Below are positions 7,502-22,395 of a DNA stretch of 34,624 bases, piece after piece. Position numbers and translations under genes: made by a program. The notes beneath the pieces are model-generated. The model searched no databases. It was not told where the DNA came from and saw nothing but the letters and a program-made list of their open reading frames with translations. The first letter of the stretch is position 1. Each line of letters starts with the position of its first letter. The stretch lies in NCBI GenBank assembly GCA_016213895.1, contig JACQZJ010000083.1, forward strand, positions 23,282 to 57,905, in the 5' to 3' direction. The stretch comes from Planctomycetota bacterium (lineage in GTDB: Bacteria > Planctomycetota > B15-G4 > JADJEK01).

Positions 7502-8860
7502 ATGCTTGAGCCACACCCCCATGCCTTCCTCGAGCGCGCCGCCGTGGTCCTGGACTCGATCACGGACGGCGTGTTCGCCATCGACCCGGACTTCCGCATC
7601 ACCGCGTTCAACCGCGCCGCGGAAGAGATCACGGCCGTGCCGCGCGCGGAGGCGCTCGGCCGTCCCTGCTGCGACGTTTTCCACGCCAGCATCTGCGAGA
7701 CCGCCTGCGCCCTGCGCGAGACCCTGGCCTCGGGCCGGCCGATCCAGTGCCGGCCGATCCACATCGTCCGGCCCGACGGCCGGCGCGTCCCGCTCAGCAT
7801 CTCCACCGCGCTCCTCAAGGACGGCAGCGGCCGGGTCATCGGCGGGGTGGAGTCGTTCCGCGACCTGTCGGTGATCGAGGACCTGAGGCGGGAGCTGACG
7901 CGCCGCCACTCCTTCCACGACATCGTCGCGCGCAGCCAGCCCATGCAGCGGCTCTTCGACATCCTCCCGGACGTGGCGCGGAGCAGCGCGACCGTGCTGA
8001 TCGAGGGGCCGAGCGGGTCGGGCAAGGAGCTGGTGGCGCACGCCATCCACGACCTGAGCCCGCGCGCGGGCGGGCCGCTGGTCGTGGTCAACTGCGGCGC
8101 GCTGCCGGACTCGCTGCTCGAGCCGGAGCTGTTCGGCCACGTGCGCGGCGCATTCACCGACGCCACCATGGACCGCAAGGGCCGCTTCGCGCTCGCGGGC
8201 GGCGGCACGATCCTCCTCGACGAGATCGGCGACGTCTCGCCCGCCCTGCAGGTGCGCCTGCTCCGGGTGCTGCAGGAGAAGACGTACGAGCCGGTGGGGT
8301 CGAGCCAGCCGCAGAAGGCGGACGTGCGCGTGATCGCGGCCACCAACAAGAACCTGCGCGACGAGGTCGCGGCCGGGCGCTTCCGCGAGGACCTCTTCTA
8401 CCGCATCAACGTGGTGCGCCTGGAGGTTCCCCCGCTCAGCCGGCGGCGCAGCGACATCCCGCTCCTTGCCGAGCACTTCATCGAGCGCCTGAACCGGCTG
8501 CACGACCGCGGCATCACCGGCCTCTCCGACGAGGCGCTCGCCGCCCTGGTGCGGCACGACTGGCCAGGCAACGTGCGCGAGCTGGAGAACGCCATCGAGC
8601 ACGCCTTCGTCCTCTGCCGCGGGCCGGTGATCTTCCCCGAGCACCTGCCGCGCGAGATCGCCGGCGCTCCCCTCGTTGCCGAGATCGCCGAGGCGCCGAT
8701 CGGCCGGACCTTGGCCGAGTTCGAGGCGCAGATCATCCTCGCCGCCCTGCGCCGCAACAACGGGCGGCGCACGAAGACCGCGCGCGAGCTGGGCATCAAC
8801 AAGTCCACGCTCTGGCGCAAGATGAGGAAGCTCGGGATACTGGCCGAGCCCGCGCCCTGA
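7502..8860 (+). CDS. Sigma54-dependent regulator, PAS-AAA-Fis, with Cys-rich PAS domain
   Basis: The 452-residue protein has a PAS domain (about 10-120; [30 protein letters not shown] at its end). It carries a cysteine set C57-x7-C65-x3-C69, with C56 adjacent, in a loop recurrent among regulators beside NifX/MinD genes and suited to redox, metal or Fe-S sensing. The AAA+ domain follows: Walker A GPSGSGKE near 169, Walker B ILLDEIG, and the sigma54 contact loop as GAFTDA near 216 instead of the usual GAFTGA. The C-terminus (about 405-450) is a Fis-type helix-turn-helix ([18 protein letters not shown]). GGAAG at 7491-7495 supports the ATG at 7502; the longer frame from 7268 runs through the divergent regulatory region. 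By position it should activate the NifX/MinD operon, as DVU2106 does in the Desulfovibrio ORP locus. Confidence 0.9.
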
Positions 8861-11172: not shown

Positions 11173-13185
11173 TCAGGGCGCGTCCAGCTCCACGGTGGCC
11201 GTGCTGGCCGTCAGCGGAACAACGCACTCGGTTCCCCTGACGACTCCGTTCGCCGTCATCTGCAGGGGTACCCAGCAGAACTCCACGCCGGAAACGGGCG
11301 CGCGGAAGCTCACGTGCGCCGCTCGATCCGCCGGAACGGCGACCATGCCCAGGCTGCGGTTCATGGAGTTCCAGCGCCAATCCACGTCTACCCAGCGCTC
11401 CTCCGTGCTGCCAGGAAATGGCATGAACGTCACGTCGTACTCCTGGTTCGGCACGCGTACGTATCTACCGTCCGCGCCGAGGCGGAACGCGTGGCTTTGG
11501 TCCGGCATGGCCAGGAGAAGAGCCCGCGCCCTCGCATCCGGCCAGGGCAGCAGACACTCCTCGCCAGACGGCCAGCGCACCGCACGCACCAGGACTGCCT
11601 GGCTCTCGGCTGACGGGTCGATCACCAGGAACACGCCCAGGGACCCGTCCTCGGCTTCCTCTCCCCCGCTCATCCTGTAGCCGAGAATCGAGCCGTCATC
11701 GGCCCACGCCAAGGACCATGCGAGCGCCTCGCCGTCGATCCCGTGTCCGGGCGCGAGCACGAAGGCCGGGCCAAGAGCCTCGAGCACCAGCGGACCCAGG
11801 TCCACGGTTCCTCCATCCGGAGGAACCTGGAACTCGCGCGCCAGCGGCAGAAATCCCTCCGCACCCATGAGGAGGCTCCCCAGCGGTGGAGGAGGATACG
11901 AGGCCGTATCCATCCTCGGAATCGTGCGCGGCAGGATCAGCGAGATCGCGCCGCTCGCATCCACCGACACGTCCACCCGTCCCGTCCAGACCGACGGGTC
12001 ATCCCGGTTGGCCTGGGCGCCGCTCCCCGAGAACCACCACTTGACGTGCAGTTGCTCGGGCTGGCGCGCGCCGCCTGGAACGACCAGCGACCCGATCACG
12101 CGAATCCCGCGCCGTAGGACCAGCTCCACGCGCGAGCCGTCGTGGGTGAACAGGACCCGCGCGTGGGCTCCGGTCTGCTCGCAAAGGCAAGAAAGGAGAC
12201 ATCTGCACCCGAGCGGCACGCTCTCGAACCGCACGTTCCGCGCGCCGTCCTCCAGGACCCTCTCCTCGGCAACCTCGGGCGCATAGACCTGGAGCCTTCC
12301 CCAGTCGAGCTCCTCGTCCACGAGCAGGCGCTCGTCTTGGGCAAGGAGCGAGCAGAGGTGGAGGCGCAGCGGGCCCTTCAACGACTCCTCCGGGCCGGAG
12401 ATCCCCACCTCCAGGCCAGAGACCCTTGCGCGACCGACGGCATCGCCCAGAGGCAGCCAGTACTCGGTGTGCCGGCCGGGCGCCAGCGCGCGTTGGACCA
12501 TGATCGTGCTCCGATCCCGGAGCTTCAACACCGCGCCGAACATGCGCGGCCAGTCCTCGTTGATACGCTGCGCTTCGCAGGCCAGGATCCAGCAATGCTC
12601 GTCGGCGAAGCCAAAGGCGCAGACGTCGTGAAAGCGCTCCTCGCAACTCGGGAGCCAGGGGACCAGATTGGCGCTCGCGGTCAGCTCGCGCAGCCCGGGG
12701 CAGTGGAGAGTCAGCACGTCGTCGCCTTCGAGATGGACCGGGTCCGCTCCTCGGCTGACCCTCTTCGGCACGTGCCCGGGAGCGTGGATCAAGGGCTCCG
12801 GGTCCTCGGTCGGGAGGTCAGCCACGCCCTGCGTAACCGGATGCCACGCTGCTGCGCCGGATCGGTCCTGCACCTCGACTCGCGTGATCTCGAGGCCCGT
12901 GAGCGAAACGATCCGCGCCTTCCAGCCTCCTTCGACGTGAGGCAGTCCAGGCGCCGGCGCTGTCTCGACCTCGCGTCGCTCCGACTCTCCTGGTTCGAGG
13001 GCAACGCCCGGGTCCGGCTCGGACCCGCGCTCGCCGCGAGCAACCTCGGCTTCCTCTGAGGGAACATCGGATTGCGGTTCATCGCGCAGAAGAGGGATGT
13101 TGAGAAGCGCGATCCCGATCGCCAGCGCCGCCAGCCCGACCGCAAAGGCAAGGCGCCAGCGACGCTTCTGAAGCGTGGTGCTCAT
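11173..13185 (-). CDS. Large single-TM protein of unknown function
   Basis: This 670-residue protein is not recognised. Residues about 11-27 (WRLAFAVGLAALAIGIA) form one membrane span or uncleaved signal anchor after a short Lys/Arg-rich start. A Glu/Ser/Pro-rich linker follows to about residue 80, then some 590 residues of beta-rich sequence with scattered Cys and Trp, presumably extracytoplasmic. The middle part (KARIVSLTGLEITRVEVQD, RRGIRVIGSLVVPGG, GTVDLGPLVLE) has the rhythm of carboxypeptidase-regulatory or Ig-like beta repeats common in planctomycete surface proteins, but this is only an impression. The start at ATG 13185 is fixed by AAGGAG, which overlaps the TAA of the aldehyde dehydrogenase gene. 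Only eight bases separate the genes, so they are co-transcribed and probably translationally coupled. Downstream it converges on the cupin gene. Confidence 0.72.
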   Translation of the reverse strand: MSTTLQKRRWRLAFAVGLAALAIGIALLNIPLLRDEPQSDVPSEEAEVARGERGSEPDPGVALEPGESERREVETAPAPGLPHVEGGWKARIVSLTGLEITRVEVQDRSGAAAWHPVTQGVADLPTEDPEPLIHAPGHVPKRVSRGADPVHLEGDDVLTLHCPGLRELTASANLVPWLPSCEERFHDVCAFGFADEHCWILACEAQRINEDWPRMFGAVLKLRDRSTIMVQRALAPGRHTEYWLPLGDAVGRARVSGLEVGISGPEESLKGPLRLHLCSLLAQDERLLVDEELDWGRLQVYAPEVAEERVLEDGARNVRFESVPLGCRCLLSCLCEQTGAHARVLFTHDGSRVELVLRRGIRVIGSLVVPGGARQPEQLHVKWWFSGSGAQANRDDPSVWTGRVDVSVDASGAISLILPRTIPRMDTASYPPPPLGSLLMGAEGFLPLAREFQVPPDGGTVDLGPLVLEALGPAFVLAPGHGIDGEALAWSLAWADDGSILGYRMSGGEEAEDGSLGVFLVIDPSAESQAVLVRAVRWPSGEECLLPWPDARARALLLAMPDQSHAFRLGADGRYVRVPNQEYDVTFMPFPGSTEERWVDVDWRWNSMNRSLGMVAVPADRAAHVSFRAPVSGVEFCWVPLQMTANGVVRGTECVVPLTASTATVELDAP

Positions 13186-18337: not shown

Positions 18338-19762
18338 ATGGTCATGGGAAGTTTGCGCCAGGAGGCCGAGGTCGCGGTCATCGGCTCGGGCCCCGGCGGC
18401 TACGTCGCGGCCCTGCGCGCCGCCGGCCTCGGCAAGGAAGTGATCCTCATCGAGGAGGAGGAGCAGCTCGGCGGCGTGTGCCTGCGCGAGGGGTGCATCC
18501 CGTCCAAGGCGCTGATCCACGTGGTCGAGCTGGCGGCGGCCGCGCAGGACGCCGCGCGCATGGGGCTCACCTTCGAGCGACTGAGCATTGACCCGCGCGC
18601 GCTGCGCGAATGGACCGCGTCGGTGGTGGCCGGCCTGGCCCAGGGCATCGCGGGCCTGCTGAAGGGCCGCGGTGTCGAGGTCGTGCGCGGCCGCGCGCGC
18701 TTCGACGGCCAGCACTCGCTGCACATCGAGGGCTCGGAGGTCGCCGGCGTCGACTTCCGCCAGTGCATCATCGCCACCGGCTCGCGCATCAACCGCCTGC
18801 CGCTCGCGCGCGACCTGCCGCTCTGGACCTCGGCCGACGCGCTCAGGATCCCCGAGGTGCCAGGGCGCCTGCTCGTCGTGGGCGGCGGCTACATCGGCCT
18901 GGAGCTGGGGCTGGTCTACGCCGGCCTCGGCTCGAAGGTGACCATGGTCGAGTACCTGCCGCGGCTCCTGATCGGGGCCGATCCCGACCTGGTGCGCGTC
19001 GTGGTCAAGAACTGCGAGAAGAAGTTCGCGGCGCTCCTGGTCGAGTCGCGCGTCATTGGCGTGGAGCGCACGTCGGCCGGGTTCGCGGTCGAGATCGAGC
19101 ACCAGGGCGCGAAGAGGAGAGAGGAGTTCGACCAGGTGCTGGTCGCGGTCGGCCGCAGGCCCAACACGGACGACCTCGGCCTGGAAAAGGCCGGCATCAC
19201 GCCGAACGAGCGCGGCCTGCTCGAGGTCACGCCCGAGGGCAAGACCACCGTGCCGCACATCTACGCCATCGGCGACGTCACGCCCGGGCCCGCCCTCGCC
19301 CACAAGGCGAGCCGCGAGGCCAAGGTCGCGGCCGAGGCGATCTCCGGCATGCACTCCGCGTTCGACAACCGCGCCATCCCGGCCGTGGTCTTCACCGACC
19401 CAGAGCTGGCCTGGGCAGGGCTCACCGAGCAGGAGGCCAAGGAGCGCGGCATCGAGGTCGACGTCGGCCGTTTCCCCCTGTCGGCGCTTGGCCGCGCGCG
19501 CACCATGGGCCGGAGCGACGGTTTGGTCAAGGTCATCGCCGATCCCGAGACCAAGCTCGTCCTCGGCGTGGGCATGGTCGGCCCGCACGCCTCGGAACTC
19601 ATCGCGGAAGGGACGCTCGCCCTGGAGATGGGCGCCACCCTCGAGGACCTCATGGTCACCATCCACCCCCACCCGACCCTGTCCGAGGCGATCATGGAGG
19701 CGAGCGAGGCGGCCGCCGGCACGGCCGTGCACGGCGCCGCGCCGCCGAAGAAGAAGCGATAG
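18338..19762 (+). CDS. lpdA: Dihydrolipoyl dehydrogenase (E3)
   Basis: This 474-residue flavoprotein reoxidises dihydrolipoamide on E2 with NAD+. The FAD site GSGPGG is at 16-21, the redox disulfide C48/C53 in GGVCLREGC, the NAD site in VVGGGYIGLELG, and the dimer-interface base pair His-Glu in HPHPTLSEA near the C-terminus. The length is complete. It lies 26 bases after E2, so it belongs to the same operon. ATG 18344 is an alternative start two codons in. Past its TAG at 19762 the gene order is interrupted by a scar of truncated genes. Confidence 0.95.
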   Translation: MVMGSLRQEAEVAVIGSGPGGYVAALRAAGLGKEVILIEEEEQLGGVCLREGCIPSKALIHVVELAAAAQDAARMGLTFERLSIDPRALREWTASVVAGLAQGIAGLLKGRGVEVVRGRARFDGQHSLHIEGSEVAGVDFRQCIIATGSRINRLPLARDLPLWTSADALRIPEVPGRLLVVGGGYIGLELGLVYAGLGSKVTMVEYLPRLLIGADPDLVRVVVKNCEKKFAALLVESRVIGVERTSAGFAVEIEHQGAKRREEFDQVLVAVGRRPNTDDLGLEKAGITPNERGLLEVTPEGKTTVPHIYAIGDVTPGPALAHKASREAKVAAEAISGMHSAFDNRAIPAVVFTDPELAWAGLTEQEAKERGIEVDVGRFPLSALGRARTMGRSDGLVKVIADPETKLVLGVGMVGPHASELIAEGTLALEMGATLEDLMVTIHPHPTLSEAIMEASEAAAGTAVHGAAPPKKKR

Positions 19763-19879
19763 GCGCAAGCGAGTACATGAAGATCGAAGCGCCGGAGGTG
19801 AGGGTGTGTGCGATGCAGGTTCTGGCTTGAGCCGGTGCGCCTTGCGGAGAGTACCGACCGCGCATAGAGGAGGCCTGGC

Positions 19880-20080
19880 GTGAGCAATGCGGCAAGTAGC
19901 GATCCGCGAATCCAGGAGGTGCGTATCACCCGGGACCAGATCATCGCCCGCCTGGTCGACGGGCGAGTCATTAGCGTTCCCCTGGCATGGTCATGGCGGC
20001 TTTCGCAGGCGAAACCCGCGGATCGAGCAAAGTTCCGGATCATAGGATGCGGACAGGGAGTCCACCTACGAGCTCTCTAA
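19880..20080 (+). pseudogene. DUF2442 protein, C-terminally truncated at a junction
   Basis: GTG at 19880 follows AGAGGAGG with seven bases of spacing. The 66-residue frame reads IQEVRITRDQIIARLVDGRVISVPLAWSWRL, then FRIIGCGQGVH, the first three quarters of a DUF2442 protein. Family members normally go on from GIHWP to an acidic tail (DEDISVEG or similar). Here the homology stops at GVH and five unrelated residues lead to TAA at 20078. At the same place the homology of a different gene begins in another frame, so the tail was lost by a deletion that fused two genes. DUF2442 proteins usually sit beside DUF4160 partners as presumed toxin-antitoxin pairs, and no intact DUF4160 gene is seen here. 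The short product might still be made, given the intact start signals. Confidence 0.7.
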
Positions 20081-20942
20081 CCGGGGAACCCTGCTCGTCT
20101 CTCTCGAGCAGTACCAGCGCGGAGGCATGAGCGAGTGCCGGAACCCGGCCCTCCAGCGGATGTTCCTGCTCATCGGCGGAGGCGAGCGGGCTGGATCCGG
20201 AGCGGACAAGATCCGGGCCGGGTGGCGCGTGCAGCACTGGCGGACGCCACGGCTGGAGGTCACCGACCAGCCCGACCGGGTGGTGCTAACCCTGCCCATG
20301 GTGAGCCTGATTCCCGAGGACGCCCTCCGCGCGCTGCGACTGCGGTTCTGGGACGCGGTGGACTCCCTCCCGCCGGCGGAGGTCCAAGCCCTGGCGACCG
20401 CCTGGTTGGAGGGCGCGGTGTCCAACACCCGCCTGCAGCAGCTCCTGGCGGACCACCCGGTCGACATCACGCACATGCTCGCCGGGCTCTGCGAGGCGGG
20501 TTACCTCGTCTCGGACAAGCGGCGCCGGTGGACGACCTACCGCCTGCCCGGCGACGGGGCACCCGAGCCGTCGCTGTTCGGGGCGGTGGACTCACCGCGC
20601 CAGGCCCCATCCGACTCCTCTCATTTGGGGATCGACTCCTCTCATTTGGGGACCGACTCCTCTCGCTCCGAAGCGGTCGAAAAGACGCTCCAGGAGATCG
20701 CCGAGCCGGTCGCCTGCCGCGGCAAGGTGAGCACCGAGCTCATGGGCCACACCGTGTGCCGGCTCTGCGGCGGGCGCTTCCTGACGGCCGAGGAGCTGGG
20801 TCGGCTCCTCAACCGGTCCGCAGCGAACCTCCGGAGCCGACACCTTTCCCGCCTGGTTCGCGACGGCCGGCTCCGCCCGCGCTTCCCGGAAGCCACGAAC
20901 CGGCCCGATCAGGCCTACACCACCGTCGAGGGCCGGGAGTGA
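20061..20942 (+). pseudogene. C-terminal half of an AlbA_2/HATPase-type ATP-binding protein
   Basis: The frame is open after a TAG at 20043-20045. Homology begins near STYELSNRGTLLVSLEQYQ and continues through GGMSECRNPALQRMFLLIGG, AGSGADKIRAGW, WTTYRLPGDG and the end TNRPDQAYTTVEG. This is the C-terminal region of the long ATP-binding proteins with an AlbA_2 DNA-binding start, a GHKL ATPase and wHTH domains, found beside restriction and other defence genes. The AlbA_2 domain and most of the ATPase are missing, so about half the protein is gone. Translation could start at ATG 20127 and give 271 residues, but without the ATPase it is unlikely to work as its relatives do. A Ser/His-rich linker with seven-residue repeats lies near residues 163-180 of that product. 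Its TGA overlaps the GTG of the next fragment. Confidence 0.75.
20613..20664 (+). repeat. 21-bp tandem repeat encoding DSSHLG(I/T)
   Basis: Two 21-base units (20613-20633 and 20634-20654) differ at one base, and a third partial copy follows to 20664. Each encodes DSSHLGI or DSSHLGT in the linker between the winged-helix domains of the ATP-binding fragment. Ser/His repeats in this linker are a general feature of the family, so their near-perfect DNA identity points to recent slippage or expansion rather than a separate element. Confidence 0.85.
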
Positions 20943-21151
20943 AGCTCCAGTTCGATCCCAATCAGCCGTTCCAGCTCGACGCCGTGGCTGCGGTGACCGA
21001 CCACTTCGACGGCCAGCCAGAGGGCCCGCGCCAGGACGTCTGGAGGGTGCAGATCAAGCACACGATCAAGAAGCACCTCGAGAAGGAGCGCGCGCAGCGC
21101 GGGCGCGGCATCAAGGTGCTGGGCCTCAGGCGTCGCATGGAGAACCCGTGA
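20939..21151 (+). pseudogene. Remnant of a type III restriction enzyme Res subunit
   Basis: The frame starts at GTG 20939, overlapping the previous stop (GTGA), and reads VKLQFDPNQPFQLDAVAAVTD with DHFDGQPEG, the standard N-terminus of type III restriction endonuclease R subunits. It then jumps directly to DVWRVQIKHTIKKHLEKE and GRGIKVL, a segment that normally lies several hundred residues further on, after the DEAD motifs. Nothing of the helicase core remains, and the sequence ends after only 70 residues. Together with the preceding fragments it records a defence locus collapsed by successive internal deletions. The product cannot be a nuclease. Confidence 0.75.
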
Positions 21152-21570
21152 GTGAGATAGAGAAACGCATCTCCGGGAGCTTCTCGGCTCAAGGGCTGAT
21201 GGGCACGCTCGGCGCCGAGCTCGTCCACGTCGCGCCCGGCGAGGTGCACATTGGCCTCTCACCGCGGCCGGGACTGTCCCAGCAACATGGGTACGTCCAT
21301 GCTGGCGCGCTCACGACCATCCTCGACAGCGCATGTGGCTACGCCGCGCTGACCGTCGCGCCGCCGGGCCATGAAGTGCTGACGGTCGAGTACAAGGTGA
21401 ACTTCGTGCGGCCGGCAGCCGCCGACCGCTTCGTAGCCGTTGGCAAGGTCGTCAAGGCAGGTAAGACCCTGACGGTGTGCCAGGGCGAGGTGGTCGGTTC
21501 TCAGGGATCGAGGCAGGAGGTCGTCGCGTTCATGCAGGCGACCATCATCAATGTCCCGATCAGCGCCTGA
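21148..21570 (+). CDS. PaaI-type hotdog-fold acyl-CoA thioesterase
   Basis: The 140-residue protein has the complete single hotdog domain of PaaI-like thioesterases. SQQHGYVHAGALTTILDSACGYAA contains the conserved HGG-type loop (here HAG) and the catalytic Asp on the following helix. LTVEYKVNFVRPA and GRTLTVC-type strands (here GKTLTVCQGEV) follow. Members hydrolyse acyl-CoA esters, often of aromatic or medium-chain acids. The substrate is not predictable. It begins with GTG 21148 overlapping the end of the restriction remnant (GTGA), so an old coupling seems preserved across the scar. It appears intact, unlike the three genes before it. Confidence 0.87.
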   Translation: MSEIEKRISGSFSAQGLMGTLGAELVHVAPGEVHIGLSPRPGLSQQHGYVHAGALTTILDSACGYAALTVAPPGHEVLTVEYKVNFVRPAAADRFVAVGKVVKAGKTLTVCQGEVVGSQGSRQEVVAFMQATIINVPISA

Positions 21571-21723
21571 CGCGCCTGCTCGTCGACGACCTCGCCGAAC
21601 TCACCGTGGAGGCCTCACACTTGTCTCAGGACCTGTCGCGACGTGGTTGTCACCCCCAGGAACCGCCGCGTTCGCAGGACATGCCGAGCGTCAGGCGACG
21701 ATCCGCATGCAGGAGGCTGATCC

Positions 21724-22395
21724 GTGGCTAGAGTGGCTGACGATCCCTTTCCCACGTACGGGCTGGACGACGACCTGCTCGAGGCGGCGCGCCGGGACGG
21801 GCGAAGCCGCGTGCGCGTGGCGCGGCCGGAGGGCGCGATGGTCGTCCTCGGCGCCGGGAGCCGTCCCGAGCGCGAGCTGTATCTCGACGCCTGCGCGCGG
21901 GACGGTGTTCCCATCCTGCGGCGCCGCGGCGGCGGCTGCGCCGTGGTTCTCGATCCGGGGAACGTGCTGGTCGCGGCGGTCGCGGTCGGCCTGCCCTCTT
22001 GCCACCGGCGCTGCCACTTCGACGCGCTCAGCGCCTGGCTCGTTTCCGCGCTCGCCCTGCTCGGGCTGCCGGGCGTCGAGCCGGCCGGGATCTCCGACCT
22101 CGCTCTGCGGGAGCGCAAGGTGGGCGGCGCCTGCCTCTACCGCCGCAAGGACCTGCTCTACTACGCCGCGAGCCTCCTCGTCTCCCCGGACGTGGAGCGC
22201 GCCAGCCGCTACCTGCGCCACCCGCCGCGCGAGCCCGCGTACCGCAGGGGGCGGCCGCACGCGGAGTTCATGGGCTCGCTCGCCGAGCACGCGCACGGCC
22301 AGGGCGCGGGCGCACTCGCCGACCCAGAGCGCTTCGCCGCCGGTTTGAGCAAGGCGCTCGGCCCCCTGCCTCTGGGCGAACGCCAGGCGAACTGA
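21724..22395 (+). CDS. lplA: Lipoate-protein ligase A family protein
   Basis: The 223-residue protein has the biotin/lipoate ligase fold: LGAGSRPERELYLDACARDGVPILRRRGGGCAVVLDPGN shows the conserved RRxGGG loop that binds the lipoyl-AMP. GISDLALRERKVGGACLYRRKDLLYY contains the catalytic Lys in a KVGG segment (KxSG in relatives). It would attach lipoate (or octanoate) to lipoyl domains such as K42 of the E2 encoded at 17025-18311. GTG 21724 is supported by AGGAGG at 21711-21716. It lacks the extra C-terminal accessory domain of E. coli LplA, so it may transfer an activated group or need a partner. No lipA or lipB is in the window. The 153 bases before it hold no convincing gene. Confidence 0.87.
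   Translation: MARVADDPFPTYGLDDDLLEAARRDGRSRVRVARPEGAMVVLGAGSRPERELYLDACARDGVPILRRRGGGCAVVLDPGNVLVAAVAVGLPSCHRRCHFDALSAWLVSALALLGLPGVEPAGISDLALRERKVGGACLYRRKDLLYYAASLLVSPDVERASRYLRHPPREPAYRRGRPHAEFMGSLAEHAHGQGAGALADPERFAAGLSKALGPLPLGERQAN

Follow-up and report, generated by a model that had tools for sequence, protein, structure and literature searches.

A lineage-specific insert between lpd and the lipoate ligase gene of a planctomycete carries probable relics of a type III Res operon and a toxin-antitoxin pair beside a complete thioesterase gene

The window, a 34,624-nucleotide stretch of DNA, corresponds to positions 23282-57905 of contig C35 in genome G000, a 5.5-Mb draft genome of 218 contigs that is 95.5% complete. 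On the + strand, the order around the site of interest is lpd, DUF2442 head, ATP-binding protein tail, Res stub, thioesterase and lipoate ligase (Table 1). The three defence fragments are real, with matches that stand well above chance level. We consider it very probable that an insert entered the gap between lpd and the lipoate ligase and was then whittled by deletions to dead defence relics and one intact thioesterase gene. In the mechanism that we propose, a foreign segment would have entered the gap in this lineage, and deletions would then have whittled it down to three leftovers: a DUF4160/DUF2442 junction consisting of a toxin tail and an antitoxin head, the C-terminal end of an AlbA_2/HATPase protein together with the start and a single internal fragment of the type III Res behind it, and the thioesterase gene.

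Table 1. Features of the insert and its neighbours, in positions of the window
Feature	Position	Strand	Basis or remark
lpd (dihydrolipoamide dehydrogenase)	18338-19762	+	left neighbour of insert
Lineage-specific insert between lpd and lipoate ligase	19755-21729	+	comparison with sister contig G001:C420 (L032)
DUF4160 toxin-type gene, probable 3′ tail, ~16 codons	19832-19898	+	frame reading, resemblance to C3
DUF2442 (DhiA-like antitoxin), 5′ part	19880-20080	+	Pfam PF10387, 2.4e-10; DNA identity to C92
Junction 1, DUF2442 to ATP-binding protein	20065-20066		base-level comparison with C92 and G001 C402
SLFN AlbA_2/HATPase_c_4 ATP-binding protein, C-terminal ~300 residues	20066-20942	+	HATPase_c_4, 6e-6
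21-bp tandem repeat coding DSSHLG units	20612-20665	+	repeat scan, sister alignment
Res remnant, residues 1-30 joined in frame to ~395-423, ending in foreign residues and a stop	20939-21151	+	
Junction 2, in-frame 1,101-bp deletion inside Res	21023-21030		comparison with sister
Junction 3, Res homology ends, 3′ half of Res lost	21119-21121		base-level comparison
Complete PaaI-type hotdog thioesterase	21148-21570	+	Pfam 4HBT, 1.7e-15; TIGR00369, 2.5e-18
Lipoate ligase	GTG start at 21733		start placed by comparison with sister

The empty site is found in G001, a sister genome from the same genus, where lpd directly adjoins the lipoate ligase gene on contig C420 (L032). The lpd match stops at window position 19754 and L032 position 2236, and the ligase match restarts at 21730 and 2243, leaving just 6 bp between the two matches in the sister. 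By this alignment, the ~1,975 bp that separate them in the window are an insert specific to its lineage. A reading made earlier from the sequence alone (the sequence-only reading) had described a scar of 1.3 kb, which falls short, as the insert does not end at 21151 and includes the whole thioesterase gene. The two insert edges have a 3-bp TAG in common and nothing else. No flanking direct or inverted repeats were found at the edges, a tRNA search at the insert returned nothing, and an Rfam search of the insert gave no match above chance and no integron-type or known RNA element. Entry as a transposon, as an integron cassette or by tRNA-targeted insertion is rejected for lack of repeats, tRNA and attC-like matches; such an entry would be marked by terminal repeats, an integrase or transposase, or an attC site with target duplication. 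Elsewhere in the same operon neighbourhood, the sister carries an intact DUF4143-type ATPase (L032:4055-5440) and a probable MNT/HEPN pair (L032:10186-10937) in intergenic spaces, both named from sequence only; the window genome has no accessory modules at the matching spaces.

An intact ATP-binding/Res locus, which the sequence-only reading had proposed to look for in relatives, is present in the sister genome, with a methylase in the same locus. The contig in question, C402 (L007, deposited as Phycisphaera mikurensis FI88_71_9), holds a DUF4143 ATPase, an N6_N4 methylase, TcmP, DUF5131, a 674-aa ATP-binding protein (L007:6891-8915) with AlbA_2 and HATPase_c_4 domains, and a Res of 992 aa carrying both a ResIII and an RE_endonuc domain. 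The window resembles this type III restriction-modification accessory locus (L007 3379-11890) closely in the parts that remain. Homology to the sister ATP-binding protein begins at 20066, the stretch 20066-21029 is collinear with C402 at 84% DNA identity, the ATPase tail (residues from 20067 on) is 84% identical in amino acids, and the window keeps the stop/start overlap into Res. It differs in having no methylase, TcmP, DUF5131 or AlbA_2 half and in lacking >90% of Res; the combination of a Mod methylase with a Res helicase-nuclease that makes a type III restriction-modification system is not found. A search of the window's own genome for the missing parts of Res, for the AlbA_2 half and for the methylase of that locus found none of them, and translocation instead of deletion is rejected on this ground. 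In a scan of the genome contigs, the locus was intact once, in the sister; besides this there was a copy at a contig end and a weak partial match.

Within Res, positions 20939-21029 correspond to residues 1-30 of the 992-aa protein and positions 21023-21120 to residues ~395-423, the latter matching the sister contig 1.1 kb further on at 91% identity. The joining of a Res start of about 30 residues to a segment from deep inside the protein, which had been proposed near 21035, is confirmed and resolves to 21023-21030. The stub has ~70 codons, and ~60 of the 992 Res residues remain in the genome. The truncation removed the helicase motifs and the RE_endonuc domain, and a Pfam domain scan of the stub found no family; the piece matches the PADLOC REase_III model (4.3e-9) and is 86-90% identical to Res with ResIII and RE_endonuc domains, which identifies it as homologous to type III Res. 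The two sides of junction 2 show an imperfect 9/12 direct match (GGCGCGCCCGAG / GGCCTGCGCGAG), a micro-similarity that is suggestive only, as ~2% of in-phase pairs drawn at random agree equally well. The short direct repeats that the sequence-only reading had suggested looking for come down to this imperfect match, and junction 1 has none. Of the two GTGA overlaps that had been read as still linking the fragments, the one at 20939 reads ATGA in the sister and is an inherited coupling, while the one at 21148 looks incidental, with the thioesterase start falling on the Res-stub stop. In a Nitrospiria genome, a second, truncated copy of the Res 5′ end (L006 1107-1615) lies ahead of an intact Res, with ~330 bp between them.

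The likeliest origin of the DUF2442 piece is not the Res operon but a DUF4160/DUF2442 (DhiTA-like) toxin-antitoxin pair distinct from it, and the sister ATP-binding/Res operon carries no DUF2442; the earlier placement of DUF2442 in one ancestral locus with the ATPase and Res is therefore unproven. DUF4160/DUF2442 is the DhiTA toxin-antitoxin system, which has been validated in Dickeya dadantii (PMC8198452), and such pairs are found on contigs C3 and C163 of the window genome and C126 and C449 of the sister. In the toxin-first order of dhiTA, the DUF2442 head is preceded by an overlapping DUF4160-like tail: the frame that overlaps the DUF2442 start ends in EYRPRIEEAWREQCGK and a stop, and resembles the DUF4160 tail EHEDEIRAAWRSHFAR, likewise before a stop, on the genome's own contig C3. 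This stretch is short and is probably the tail of a DUF4160 toxin-type gene; the DUF4160 model, searched against contig C35, gave no match. DhiTA comprises a complete DUF4160 toxin followed by a complete DUF2442 antitoxin, whereas in the window the toxin is reduced to ~16 codons and the antitoxin is without its C-terminal part. The PF10387 match spans model positions 1-55 of 72 and misses positions 56-72; 62 native codons remain, and the conserved HWPDVDEDISVEG tail, which belongs to the best-conserved part of the family, is gone.

The nearest relative of the DUF2442 piece is the intact gene at 68184-68383 of contig C92 in the same genome (87% amino-acid and 85% DNA identity), and the identity ends at 20065. 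Recent copying from C92 is rejected, since the DNA identity is only 85%. The C92 locus (L034) resembles the window in that its DUF2442 adjoins an AlbA_2/HATPase protein, but there the ATPase gene comes before DUF2442 (the reversed order), with a type I-like HsdM/GmrSD on the other side, and all genes are intact. As the sequence-only reading had noticed near 20065, the DUF2442 tail is lost exactly where the ATP-binding protein half starts, a join that the two references place at 20065/20066. No microhomology or overlap is seen there in present-day C92 and G001 C402. A 161-bp probe across the junction matched in 392 phylum genomes only as separate halves, at G000:C92 and G001:C402, and the junction itself occurs in no other of them.

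The blunt form of junction 1 would also suit a different route, in which the toxin-antitoxin scrap, the ATPase/Res scrap and the thioesterase were joined from unrelated broken ends, for example by end-joining, at or before insertion. We regard this route as possible though doubtful. The pieces would be equally dead under it, so that it departs from the relic reading only in their route, with no one long defence island ever having stood at this site. It is in keeping with the sister operon, where DUF5131, TcmP and a methylase, and no DUF2442, precede the ATPase and Res, and with the position of the nearest DUF2442 in a different, type I-like locus on C92. The ATPase/Res locus has moved, too, the sister C402 site corresponding to the island-free contig C133 of the window genome. 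The Res break argues the other way, being a simple collinear in-frame deletion of the kind typical of post-insertion erosion, as does the single orientation shared by all of the pieces. We infer that junction 1 was made by deletion rather than by piecewise insertion, and that the toxin-antitoxin pair and the Res operon once lay side by side at this site. The large deletions of the sequence-only reading hold for the 1,101 bp lost from inside Res; loss of the methylase from this site is unproven, and it was perhaps never there.

A metagenome contig could also be mis-assembled from defence-gene reads, and the genome is a draft known here from its assembly alone. We consider this very unlikely, because three separate breaks lie within 1.1 kb, the window contains no N, the sequences differ from all further copies in the genome, the internal deletion is in frame, and the insert is bounded by intact operon genes; chimeras are rarely so built.

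The defence pieces are almost certainly dead leftovers, a view that follows from the domain content lost: the end of DUF2442, the AlbA_2 domain, which binds DNA, and the N-box, and the helicase and nuclease of Res. The ATP-binding protein piece covers HATPase positions 14-83 only and has neither the AlbA_2 domain nor a HATPase with its N-box. The pieces would thus be expected to restrict no DNA, to hydrolyse no ATP via the lost N-box and to neutralise no toxin, and may be passenger relics, transcribed at most within the PDH operon. It is improbable that the short frames are functional, with the truncated DUF2442 and a 271-aa ATPase C-terminal/winged-helix protein serving as small antitoxin-like or anti-restriction regulators. 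Such a role would fit frames that are open, have low dN/dS and show no excess of amino-acid change, and an ATG at 20127, new relative to the sister, stands after a GGAGG and could start the 271-aa protein. However, the GGAGG is just 1 nt from this ATG, a promoter-like site was looked for and not found, and an NPG to NRG change beside the break affects a site kept in readable homologues; what is left of DUF2442 and of the ~70-residue Res stub also speaks against it. A conserved short fused form, the alternative to remnants, was sought and not found: it is absent from 198 relatives, in which the other matches have an ORF of at least 631 aa, and from the viral contigs. Domestication of the ATPase winged-helix part with its DSSHL repeats, or of the DUF2442 head, as a small regulatory or antitoxin-like protein in the PDH operon is quite improbable.

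Compared to the sister, the ATPase piece has a dS of 0.38 and a dN/dS of 0.26, and this dS lies within the range of the neighbouring vertical genes (0.26-0.43), lpd having a dS of 0.26 (dN/dS 0.19) and the ligase 0.43 (dN/dS 0.46). With L006 as outgroup, 7 unique amino-acid changes fall in the window piece versus 16 in the intact sister copy. All pieces are open, with no stop or frameshift besides the breaks and no accelerated decay, so either the collapse is young compared with the species split, or one of the pieces is under constraint to this day. Since there is no conserved short form, a recent collapse is more likely and a still-working piece less so. The DSSHLG repeat has fewer copies in the window than in the sister protein, and DSSHL-coding repeats of 21-24 bp differ in copy number among relatives (window 20612-20665, L007 ~8547-8639, L006 ~1390-1520); in L006, similar repeats also occur in the short stretch that separates the truncated Res copy from the complete one.

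The thioesterase is the one complete gene in the insert (PF03061 positions 1-74 of 79, TIGR00369 positions 2-106 of 117). It has its own Shine-Dalgarno, a GGAG 5 nt upstream of its start, from which a functional protein is probably translated. Strong homologues are rare, occurring in 4 other genomes of a 294-genome phylum set. The gene was considered as an old operon member and rejected as such: neither the sister nor G037 has it in the gap between lpd and ligase, and it was therefore gained. A histidine-kinase-like scrap at 21571-21620 amounts to a weak match of ~40 bp, with no family match.

The ATPase/Res locus has changed place within the genus. In the sister, the defence locus on C402 is bracketed by 542-bp direct repeats that are 98.5% identical (L007:1209-1750 and 11929-12470) and correspond to a small SecDF_P1-head-like gene, and it looks like a Campbell-type integration or a recombination-excisable island. 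A dispersed repeat of 75-200 bp (73-87% identical) lies beside DUF4143/defence loci (L007 1661-1866) and matches many contigs, including C68, C27, C103, C207, C211 and C88 of the window genome. At C133 (L092 4824-5118), only two scraps are left of a DUF4143 AAA ATPase that the sister has in full (428 aa); its Walker-A Lys has become Arg, and one of the breaks shows an overlap of 5 bp. This second collapsed gene suggests repeated erosion of such genes in this lineage; across the genus, accessory genes arrive, change place and decay.

Across prokaryotes, restriction-modification genes undergo loss and degradation at a high rate (Oliveira et al., 2014, PMC4176335), and the decay of these systems as such is already well known. 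In contrast to the degraded or solitary components described there, the remnants in the window are pieces smaller than a gene rather than whole genes standing alone, and their breakpoints are mapped. This is an ordinary yet unusually well-resolved case of defence-gene decay, with the empty-site and the intact-site references both available in one sister genome. It shows at base resolution how a phage-defence operon and a toxin-antitoxin pair are lost once they have entered a housekeeping operon, leaving fragments that an annotation would otherwise list as small hypothetical proteins or include among the defence genes.
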